In this document: positions 32,419-36,079 of the stretch, one piece after another
Numbering within the stretch: position 1 is the first letter of the stretch
How the letters are laid out: every line of letters starts with the position of its first letter
Assembly: GCA_945863875.1 (NCBI GenBank)
Contig: CAMBBS010000007.1
Coordinates: 89,259-144,546, forward strand
Direction: 5' to 3'
DNA from: Desulfopila aestuarii DSM 18488
Lineage (GTDB): Bacteria; Desulfobacterota; Desulfobulbia; Desulfobulbales; Desulfocapsaceae
DNA: 55,288 nucleotides
Position numbers and translations under genes: made by a program
The notes under the pieces: model-generated
Database searches by the model: none
What the model saw: only the letters and a program-made list of their open reading frames with translations
What the model was told of the DNA's origin: nothing

Positions 32419-33369
32419 ATGACGGACAATTCATTTATCGGCCCAATGAGCATGGTGAAAATTGATGGGGCAAAAATCAAACTGCTGCGTGAACAGCAAG
32501 GCCTCACCCAATTGTACCTGGCGACAGCGGTCGAGGTAACCACCGACACGATCTCGAGATGGGAAAACCGCCGCTATCCGAGTATCAAGAGAGACAACGG
32601 TTTGAGACTTGCCGAGGCTCTGAATGTTGAGCTCGACGACCTTCTGGAAAAAATCGCCGAAGACGTCGAGGAAGAGGCAGCGGCAAATGAGACGGTCCCT
32701 CCGGAGCACGTACCGTCAGTTGATCTTTCTGCAGCAAAAACACCAGGCTTGCAGAACAAGTGGATTCTGTTCATTCTTGCCGCGACATTCGTCAGTGTTG
32801 CCCTGGTCTTCACCTGGTATTTTCTGCGCGCACCCTCCTTGGCCCCGTTTGCCGCTGAGCGCATCGTGCCGAGCCACTGCATCAGCGGACAACCCTTTCC
32901 GGTGGTCATCAAGGTTACCGGGGCGCCGGATACGGCCAACGCCCTGATCATCAAAGAAAACATTCCCGAAAGCGCAACCATTCAGGCGACCGCGCCGACC
33001 TTGCCTGCCGGCGCCCTGAAAAACAAGCAAATCAAATGGCTCAAAAAAATTAACCAGACAGCAGTCTATTCGTATCTCATCACTGTCTCCGGCAAAGACG
33101 AAGAGGTCATACCTTTCAGCGGCACGGCGGCCATCAGCAGCGAATCCGAATCAGCCATCCAGGGCGACAACACAATTACCCTCGGCCGGCATCATTGGGC
33201 GGATGCCAATAAGGACAATATCATCAGCGATGATGAGATTCTCGCGGTTTACAATCAGTACAGTGACATAACCGGCCTGGACGTCGACATTGATCTCATC
33301 GAAGAAATATGGATGGGATCGGCCTACCAGTGGGACAGCGCCAAGGCCACCTTTAAAATCATCGAGTAG
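32419..33369 (+). CDS. Membrane-tethered XRE-type HTH protein with extracytoplasmic EF-hand loop
   Basis: 316 residues. An XRE/Cro helix-turn-helix spans about 14-75 (IKLLREQQGLTQLYLATAVEV, ISRWENRRYPS), followed by an acidic linker, one membrane helix (about 114-136, ILFILAATFVSVALVFTWYFL) and an extracytoplasmic part. The latter has a beta-rich Ig-like section (about 150-240) and then a canonical 12-residue EF-hand loop (DANKDNIISDDE, 262-273) in a dockerin-like helix-loop-helix. DNA binding inside and possible calcium or ligand binding outside suggests a one-component membrane sensor. The start is uncertain: Met1 and Met12 (32452) both lack a strong ribosome site. Neighbours give no function. 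Confidence 0.75.
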   Translation: MTDNSFIGPMSMVKIDGAKIKLLREQQGLTQLYLATAVEVTTDTISRWENRRYPSIKRDNGLRLAEALNVELDDLLEKIAEDVEEEAAANETVPPEHVPSVDLSAAKTPGLQNKWILFILAATFVSVALVFTWYFLRAPSLAPFAAERIVPSHCISGQPFPVVIKVTGAPDTANALIIKENIPESATIQATAPTLPAGALKNKQIKWLKKINQTAVYSYLITVSGKDEEVIPFSGTAAISSESESAIQGDNTITLGRHHWADANKDNIISDDEILAVYNQYSDITGLDVDIDLIEEIWMGSAYQWDSAKATFKIIE

Positions 33370-34316: not shown

Positions 34317-35789
34317 ATGTCCATTCTTTATGAAGACTGGGTGACCATGTTGCAGGGAAATTATTTTGTTAACCGATGCATAAGCGAAACCTTGAGCGGC
34401 CTACGAGATGGTTTGACTTTATTTTCCGGAACCAGCCGCTCGGCCGTCGTTTTTGCCTTACAACAAACAGATGAGCTGTCTATCTGCGATCCGCAGAATC
34501 TGCTGCGCGGTTACGAGCCGAAGCTGAAAACTCTCTATCTCGACAGTGATGCCTGGTGCTCGCCGATCGACAGACAGAGTTCTTATCTTGCATATAATCA
34601 CATTGAACCCCAGGCCGATCTTCTTCTCGATGGACTTATTTCCAACGGCGGCAGTTCCAGTTCGGTCTATTATCAAATGTGGTTTACCGAACACCATCCA
34701 AACATGTGCTCTCTCTGTCCGACGGAATGCTGGCTGGAGCATGCCGTGCTGAGATTATCCCACGATATGGCCAACGACAGCACCCTCTACACAGGCATTT
34801 CCGGCAGCTTTCTGCGCGAATACTCGCTGCACGCCGTCCATGATTGCATCGTCGATATGGCCGGCCTTGTTCTGGGACTTGACGTTCAGGTACATATTTA
34901 CCCGATACTCAATGCCCTCCTGGGCATTTCAAAAACCAATGAAGAGGGCGTACGCCCACACGGTTCCTTAACATTCATTGAACCAAGATTTCTTAAAGAT
35001 ATTGATTTCCTGGCACGATTTCAGAGTTCGGAACAACCTCCGCTGAACAATTTCAAACATGTCCGCAAACTCCTCCAGGCGGTGGAACATTCCCGGCGAA
35101 CGCTTGTCTCTGATGGGACAAATATCCTGGGCATTGCCGAGAAAGATATAACTCCGTTTCATATCACCGCCGATTTTGAAGGTAAATTCGGATTTCTCTT
35201 TGTCAAGGATGAGATTATCTGCAGTTTCCAGGATGGCAGATACAGCTCCGATACCCACCGGGCAAAGCTGTTTGAAGTCGAAGAGGCGCTGCTCGATTAC
35301 GACATCGATCCGTCGGTCAGAACAGGTATGTTTAAAATTATTGCCGCACTTGTCCACAATGCGGAAGATAAGATGTTCGGCTGCACCTTTGTCATTGATC
35401 TGGCAGCTGAACCAACGCCAATTGCCGGACAGGTGCTGACCCCCGCGGTGAACCTGCAGGAGCCAAAGATACTCAGGCTTGCCGCCGGCCTGTCAAAAGT
35501 AGACGGGGCACTGCATATCCGCTCAGACCTGCATCTGCATGGTTTTGCCTGTCTGCTCGACGGTAACAGGGTAGAAAATGAAAATAGAGCGCGCGGGGCA
35601 CGTTATAATTCCGCTCTGCGTTTTACGGCGCAACATCACGAGACTATAGTCGTTGTCGTCTCTTCCGACCGGCCAGTCTCCATATTCCAGCAAGGCCTGG
35701 AGATCGTCAACAAATACTGCACCCCTTTCTCGCCACGATGCGCCATCTTTCCGCTGCCATTGCGCAAATGGCTGGAGGAGACAATATAA
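34317..35789 (+). CDS. Divergent diadenylate cyclase (DAC/DisA_N)-domain protein
   Basis: 490 residues. The C-terminal about 135 residues fit the DAC fold that makes cyclic di-AMP from two ATP: KIIAALVHNAEDKMFGCTFVIDL (about 340-362), the DGA motif in KVDGALHI (396-398), and RGARYNSALRF (426-436) where classical enzymes have GTRHRAA. These are followed by VVVSSDRPVSIFQQG, which matches the last strands. Residues 1-340 are unlike CdaA, CdaS or DisA partners and probably form a sensor region; they include a Cys cluster CSLCPTEC (131-138). No membrane helix is seen. Arg-Tyr-Asn replaces Arg-His-Arg, so activity is uncertain. Diverse N-terminal regions fused to DAC domains have been predicted elsewhere. 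No strong ribosome site. It stands alone, convergent with a small gene. Confidence 0.75.
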   Translation: MSILYEDWVTMLQGNYFVNRCISETLSGLRDGLTLFSGTSRSAVVFALQQTDELSICDPQNLLRGYEPKLKTLYLDSDAWCSPIDRQSSYLAYNHIEPQADLLLDGLISNGGSSSSVYYQMWFTEHHPNMCSLCPTECWLEHAVLRLSHDMANDSTLYTGISGSFLREYSLHAVHDCIVDMAGLVLGLDVQVHIYPILNALLGISKTNEEGVRPHGSLTFIEPRFLKDIDFLARFQSSEQPPLNNFKHVRKLLQAVEHSRRTLVSDGTNILGIAEKDITPFHITADFEGKFGFLFVKDEIICSFQDGRYSSDTHRAKLFEVEEALLDYDIDPSVRTGMFKIIAALVHNAEDKMFGCTFVIDLAAEPTPIAGQVLTPAVNLQEPKILRLAAGLSKVDGALHIRSDLHLHGFACLLDGNRVENENRARGARYNSALRFTAQHHETIVVVVSSDRPVSIFQQGLEIVNKYCTPFSPRCAIFPLPLRKWLEETI

Positions 35790-35809: not shown

Positions 35810-35828
35810 GTTTTTACGACGCCATCAA
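35810..35828 (+). repeat. Dispersed 19-nt repeat, copy 3
   Basis: GTTTTTACGACGCCATCAA, 20 nt after the DAC gene stop. Its last bases supply the stop codon (TGA on the minus strand) of the convergent 84-residue gene. Identical to copies at 14142-14160 and 24571-24589. Confidence 0.85.
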
Positions 35829-36079
35829 AGTTCGTGGACCCAATCCGGTATGTGGTTCAGGATATAATGCTGCACGGCGGCTTTTCTGTCACCCGCCGCA
35901 ACGTCACCTACCGCAGCCTTCACCTCGGCAAAGTCAAACCAGCACAATTCGCGATCGTCTTTACTGTAGACAGTCAGAATTCTTTTGTCGGTCTGCTCAA
36001 TATCTTCTTCTTCCTGAATCGCCCCGACTAGTTTCGCGGCCTCTGCATAACTAAGAAATGTTACCTTTTCTTCACTCAT
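35825..36079 (-). CDS. Small acidic protein of unknown function
   Basis: 84 residues starting MSEEKVTFLSYAEAAKLVG. It is acidic and soluble, with predicted helix-strand-helix character (AAVGDVAAGDRKAAVQHYILNHIPDW at the end). GGGG lies before the ATG and codon use looks like its neighbours. No motif is recognised. It follows rpmB after a terminator-like hairpin. The stop codon lies inside copy 3 of the 19-nt repeat. Confidence 0.6.
   Translation of the reverse strand: MSEEKVTFLSYAEAAKLVGAIQEEEDIEQTDKRILTVYSKDDRELCWFDFAEVKAAVGDVAAGDRKAAVQHYILNHIPDWVHEL

Follow-up and report, generated by a model that had tools for sequence, protein, structure and literature searches.

We identified a gene (34317-35789, plus strand) in a window of 55,288 nucleotides, the whole stretch of DNA from the sulfate-reducing bacterium Desulfopila aestuarii DSM 18488 that was analysed, whose product P0001 (490 amino acids, ATG start) is an ordinary member of the already catalogued DACND-DACNH-DAC architecture of diadenylate cyclase (DAC) domain proteins. 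The useful twist is that its odd active-site motif is, in the sequences compared, a class signature common to DACs that pass the model for the DS-2 phage-defence DAC. On balance we lean towards P0001 being a sensor- or signal-controlled dinucleotide cyclase, probably cytosolic, whose product is probably c-di-AMP and which accompanies two canonical enzymes of the CdaA type. Galperin's All DACs in a row (J Bacteriol 2023) reportedly defined new N-terminal domains for DAC proteins, and it may well discuss the modified motif. The names DACND, DACNV, DACNG and DACNK were absent from the open-licence literature searched, in which DACNH occurred only in one paper, on ABCG2 inhibitors, and none of the matches listed from that literature dealt with the enzymology of proteins with DACND or DACNH or of R-x-N DACs.

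P0001 Combines a DAC Domain With Two Probable Sensor Domains

Three Pfam families matched P0001 above their cut-offs of 27 bits and in the order of the Pfam DACND-DACNH-DAC architecture. The DACND domain covers residues 17-187 (34365-34877, plus strand; PF21749, 245.5 bits, E = 2.9e-73), the DACNH domain residues 195-300 (34899-35216, plus strand; PF21750, 109.1 bits, E = 1.3e-31) and the DAC (DisA_N) domain residues 346-460 (35352-35696, plus strand; PF02457, 49.5 bits, E = 3.9e-13). An earlier note, made from the sequence alone, had read the last part of this open reading frame (ORF) as a DAC domain, which the PF02457 match confirms, and the motifs quoted there (KVDGALHI, RGARYNSALRF and VVVSSDRPVSIFQQG) are all found in the translation. 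Its view that the N-terminus holds no familiar domain was rejected, since DACND and DACNH are both in Pfam, where they are described as probable sensor domains. Compared with other proteins of this architecture (PF21749, PF21750, PF02457), P0001 has the same domains in the same order and shares 42-82% identity with its aligned relatives, and no essential difference was seen.

The structure of P0001 was predicted from an input of 88 aligned rows (pLDDT 87.6, pTM 0.81). A Foldseek search of solved structures with this model gave 71 PDB matches at E <= 0.001; the 50 listed include Mycoplasma CdaM (8ofj, E = 2.8e-6), CdaA structures such as 8ogk, M. tuberculosis DisA (9y4s) and 3c1y, which is titled a bacterial DNA damage sensor and which we take to be T. 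maritima DisA. Because the model matches solved DAC domains and PF02457 scores above its cut-off, the assignment is right: the C-terminus is a DAC domain with, in the predicted model, a DAC fold. No fold relative of DACND was present among the 50 PDB matches listed for the whole model, a viral structure library gave nothing at E <= 0.001, and a sequence search of the PDB with the single protein gave no match at E <= 1. Profile searches of the PDB returned weak non-DAC matches only (profile A3, best E = 0.11) or a weak match to 2fb5 (profile A4, E = 0.053). P0001 shares the DAC fold, the DGA motif and the first Arg of the RHR motif with CdaA, CdaM and DisA, and differs from them in having neither a Pfam membrane or DNA-binding domain nor a clear membrane helix (highest 19-residue Kyte-Doolittle mean 1.54).

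The gene is real. Between P0001 and its relative L032, dN/dS was 0.064 over the full length and 0.032 in the DAC domain, and against a second relative, L033, it was 0.100 and 0.058. In both pairs the DAC domain is the most constrained part, and the C-terminal tail is loose (0.44 and 0.36, respectively); in a third pair (L034) dS was saturated. Such strong purifying selection argues against decay of P0001.

The CSLCPTEC cluster, for which a metal-binding or redox role had been considered, is present at residues 131-138 (34707-34730, plus strand) and is not conserved as a cluster. Cys occupies position 131 in 81, position 134 in 3 and position 138 in 34 of the 88 aligned rows, and the metal or redox site was rejected because all three occur jointly in only 3 of the 88. 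Two other cysteines, C302 (Cys in 88/88 rows) and C412 (86/88), may have a redox or structural role.

The Altered RHR Motif Is Fixed Throughout the Subfamily

The active-site motifs were compared over 88 rows, consisting of P0001 and 87 of 92 near-full-length ORFs, with 85 distinct sequences among them; the remaining five ORFs (L036, L038, L074, L086, and L094) were omitted without a measured criterion. Asp and Gly of the DGA motif (residues 396-398; 35502-35510, plus strand) are found in all 88 rows and Ala in 86. In the LDG motif, whose Asp-Gly stands at residues 415-416 (35559-35564, plus strand), D415 is present in 83 of 88 rows; in most of the canonical DACs compared, LPL stands in place of LDG. 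The canonical xGTRHRAAxG is replaced by RGARYNSALR (residues 426-435; 35592-35621, plus strand), in which eight positions (R426, G427, A428, R429, N431, S432, A433, and R435) are fixed in 88/88 rows, query included, and position 430 is Tyr in 65 rows, Phe in 22 and His in one. Relative to L001 and L002, the two further DACs encoded in this genome, which each carry GTRHRAA, T-R-H-R has become A-R-Y-N at residues 428-431. The motif had been found in 116 of 121 family ORFs in an earlier count from redundant sources; the five exceptions, open stretches of 301-386 residues, do not reach the length of the full protein.

The earlier description of P0001 as a divergent DAC-domain protein with an altered RHR motif agrees with these data, in which DGA is kept and R-Y-N occupies residues 429-431. 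The notion that R-Y-N is a peculiarity of one protein has to be given up: with R429 and N431 in 88/88 rows it is the signature of the whole subfamily and no private defect. Random decay of the motif was rejected on the grounds of the low dN/dS and its fixation in all 88 rows.

Whether the change from RHR to RYN affects activity, as had been asked, is a fair question. In a report on S. aureus DacA, Asp and Gly of DGA contact the ribose and the Thr preceding RHR contacts the phosphates (PMC6368335). In a study of M. tuberculosis DacA, replacing RHR by AAA abolished ATP binding and activity, and a change of the Gly in DGA was tolerated (PMC3328451). P0001 has the DGA motif and lacks the canonical Thr in front of RHR. 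The inactivation of M. tuberculosis DacA, together with Ala or Ser at the place of the phosphate-contacting Thr, counts against a cyclase. Retention of DGA and of the first Arg, with Thr, His and the last Arg swapped for an equally fixed set, would suggest a re-tooled, working site. The replacement of the Thr and of two of the three RHR residues would also suit a degenerate cyclase turned receptor, in which the DAC domain binds ATP or CdaA-made c-di-AMP and signals to the N-terminal domains or to a partner; conservation of the pocket fits binding without catalysis as well. We consider such a receptor unlikely, and further evidence on it is given with the DS-2 proteins and the distribution of DACND.

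R-x-N DACs Outside the Desulfobacterota and the Link With DS-2

A tblastn search with P0001 identified relatives on three plasmid records and a second query added four, from Bacillota (three), Pseudomonadota (two), Bacteroidota (one) and Planctomycetota (one), so that R-x-N DACs were found in these phyla and in Desulfobacterota. A scan of viral contigs added three further loci (L170-L172), and the phage records searched gave no match. All 10 plasmid and viral-contig relatives examined have RG[AS]R-x-N; in nine of them it reads RG[AS]R[YF]N, and the Phycisphaera DAC has RGARLN.

A tree of DAC domains was built with 45 tips, comprising 19 DACND-type proteins (of 21 named, two having failed the pattern), the 10 plasmid and viral proteins, and 16 taken as CdaA- or DacZ-like, the label DacZ being our own reading. 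DisA is missing from it, as none of the 297 phylum genomes exceeded the DisA cut-off. In this tree without DisA, the R-x-N class lies on one side of a branch with a support of 100/98, and with 99/97 after removal of the ten motif columns; the join carries some doubt, given the shortness of the DAC domain and the program's warning of long branches that meet. Several columns separate the 29 R-x-N rows from the 16 others. The Asp of LDG is found in 28 of 29 (vs. Asp in one and Pro in 14 of 16), N431 in 29 of 29 (vs. Arg in 14 and His in two), R435 in 29 of 29 (vs. Gly in 14 of 16 and Arg in none) and R426 before the Gly in 29 of 29 (vs. none of the 15 others shown), and the Thr position ahead of RHR is Ala in 27 and Ser in two of the 29. 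With respect to the DisA cut-off (NF010009), which 0/297 Desulfobacterota genomes including this one reached, weaker matches occur in 278 of the 297, and those listed mostly concern the DAC end of the profile.

This coherent set of residues (the acid of LDG, the Arg before the motif, and Asn and Arg inside it) would be expected if P0001 were an active cyclase whose rebuilt pocket yields something other than c-di-AMP, such as a dinucleotide of mixed composition or with a different linkage, and SMODS-like genes adjoin three of the plasmid members. We judge another product to be rather improbable. It is conceivable, though on the doubtful side, that the RG[AS]R-x-N and LDG DACs form a separate, biochemically undescribed class of dinucleotide cyclases that have a rebuilt pocket and differ from canonical c-di-AMP synthases in their preferred product or substrate. 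The DS-2 DAC and the sensor-linked P0001 would be two uses of this class. The R-x-N motif is fixed across the subclass, and its chemistry would bear on DS-2 and on the role of the third DAC in these Desulfobacterota.

The NCBIfam model for the DS-2 anti-phage DAC (NF053872) matched residues 199-457 of P0001 (E = 2.8e-18), and the score of 65.6 bits fails its cut-off of 630. Two of the seven plasmid relatives pass it, L131 from Citrobacter (803.8 bits) and L132 from Gluconobacter (712.2 bits), which indicates that the model works; the other five score 435.4, 395.3, 240.8, 223.2, and 192.8 bits. L131 (5596-7341) and L132 (4941-6713) are DACNG-DACNH proteins with the motifs RGSRYNSG and RGARYNSA, respectively, and with DGT in place of DGA. 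PF02457 matched L132 with 33.2 bits and gave no match to L131 at E <= 0.01; because of this and the DGT of L131, DS-2 DACs may have diverged further, which counts against the cyclase reading of P0001. Each of the two genes adjoins a patatin-like phospholipase and a nucleotidyltransferase gene (Pfam Patatin and SMODS; SMODS 28.9 and 26.4 bits vs. a cut-off of 26.5).

The gene set beside L131 and L132 is the same as that described for DS-2 in the DefensePredictor paper, in which defence was lost when two DAC residues predicted to be catalytic were mutated and which cites Galperin's DAC survey for the association of CBASS and DACs (PMC13092281). Judging from the members that pass NF053872, the DS-2 DAC tested there probably carries R-x-N. 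Since L131 and L132 carry the motif and DS-2, according to that paper, needs predicted catalytic DAC residues for defence, the comparison supports a cyclase and speaks against a receptor. P0001 and the DS-2 DACs (NF053872; DACNG-DACNH-DAC) have homologous DACNH and DAC domains and RG[AS]R-x-N in common; they differ in the N-terminus, which is DACNG in DS-2 DACs and DACND in P0001, in the CBASS genes, none of which was found beside P0001, and in the P0001 score far below the NF053872 cut-off.

Other R-x-N DACs were seen on Priestia plasmids, in one case divergent from a gene that SMODS matched strongly, with 134 bits (L134, 3001-5990), in another near restriction and methyltransferase genes (L128, 5296-9574) and in a third after a plasmid stabilization gene (L130, 4173-6405). 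A short DAC protein from a genome of the same genus as D. aestuarii (L174, 1306-2238, minus strand) has GARHHSA at the place of RHR, an intermediate-looking motif.

P0001 Is Additional to Canonical DACs

DAC genes are by no means rare in the near group, as PF02457 exceeded its cut-off in 57 of 57 genomes, including that of D. aestuarii. The latter has three such genes, encoding a CdaA-type protein of 261 amino acids, a CdaA-type protein of 484 amino acids with a C-terminal extension, and P0001; both canonical proteins carry GTRHRAA, and CdaA types compared with P0001 differ in T-R-H-R instead of A-R-Y-N and LPL instead of LDG. DACND was detected in at least 27 of the 57 genomes (D. aestuarii included), a lower bound because a further genome (G021) holds a DACND-type DAC with RGARYNSA that is cut by a contig end (L175). 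Among 297 sampled genomes of the phylum, DACND was found in 19 (D. aestuarii included), and the 18 with an NF053872 match all fall within these 19. The genome collection searched has 273 stretches encoding P0001 relatives, the best 80 of which are titled Desulfo-, delta/Proteobacteria or uncultured bacterium.

A DAC scoring more than 100 bits accompanies DACND in 26 of 27 carriers, so c-di-AMP synthesis in these needs no P0001-type protein; this counts against a cyclase and in favour of a receptor. A point against the receptor is one genome, 94% complete (G025), in which the DACND-type protein is the sole DAC match, although a missing contig could explain this.

A cyclase is supported by D396, G397, R429, N431, and R435, each present in 88/88 rows. 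Under the cyclase reading that we prefer, DACND and DACNH would detect a cue inside the cell and either hold pairs of DAC domains or let them go, and two ATP would be joined into c-di-AMP where two DAC domains face each other; for canonical DACs, a head-to-head meeting of two DAC domains is required (PMC8573169). ATP binding, catalysis, the c-di-AMP product, N-terminal control and the cytosolic location are all properties that we infer. As the genome also encodes two canonical CdaA-type enzymes, the output of P0001 would probably be a conditional and not a housekeeping signal. Searches of the D. aestuarii genome gave no match to the c-di-AMP riboswitch RF00379 or to the 7TM part of PgpH. Six matches to DHHA1 (four over the cut-off) and 17 to TrkA_C were obtained, both families being so broad that neither a phosphodiesterase nor a c-di-AMP receptor can be named from them.

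Gene Neighbourhood of P0001

The homology to NF053872 over DACNH and DAC, and the position of P0001 on the same side of the tree as DS-2-type DACs, could point to an anti-phage component like the DS-2 DAC. The surroundings of the gene make this very unlikely. Of eight neighbouring ORFs scanned with Pfam, seven matched, to S41 peptidase, an RNase II-type RNB domain, HTH, glycine zipper (below cut-off), ResB, cytochrome c assembly and class III cytochrome families, and none of the eight is a phospholipase or nucleotidyltransferase. The gene order is common to near relatives and represents ordinary synteny. A SMODS search of the genome gave no match, a weak test, as divergent members could escape it in view of the low scores of the nucleotidyltransferases beside L131 and L132. 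The DACND N-terminus and the low NF053872 score given above also speak against a DS-2-like role. Searches against PADLOC and PHROGs gave no match at E <= 1. A defence island around P0001 was rejected, as there was no sign of it in the scanned neighbours, the synteny or the SMODS search of the genome.

Of 79 loci, 28 have an upstream ORF and 17 a downstream ORF that lies within 100 bases and on the same strand. An operon partner was rejected as well, since no same-strand partner is widespread and the commonest upstream family occurs at 8 of 79 loci. The commonest neighbour of the DACND gene is a small convergent ORF (19 of 79 loci). In the window this ORF (35827-36079, minus strand) has no Pfam match at E <= 0.001, and similar ORFs occur at 20 of 81 loci. 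An HTH_3 protein is encoded at 32419-33369 (plus strand), with similar ORFs at 17 of the 81 loci compared; read by eye, it seems to have a membrane helix and a C-terminus that looks Ca-binding or dockerin-like.
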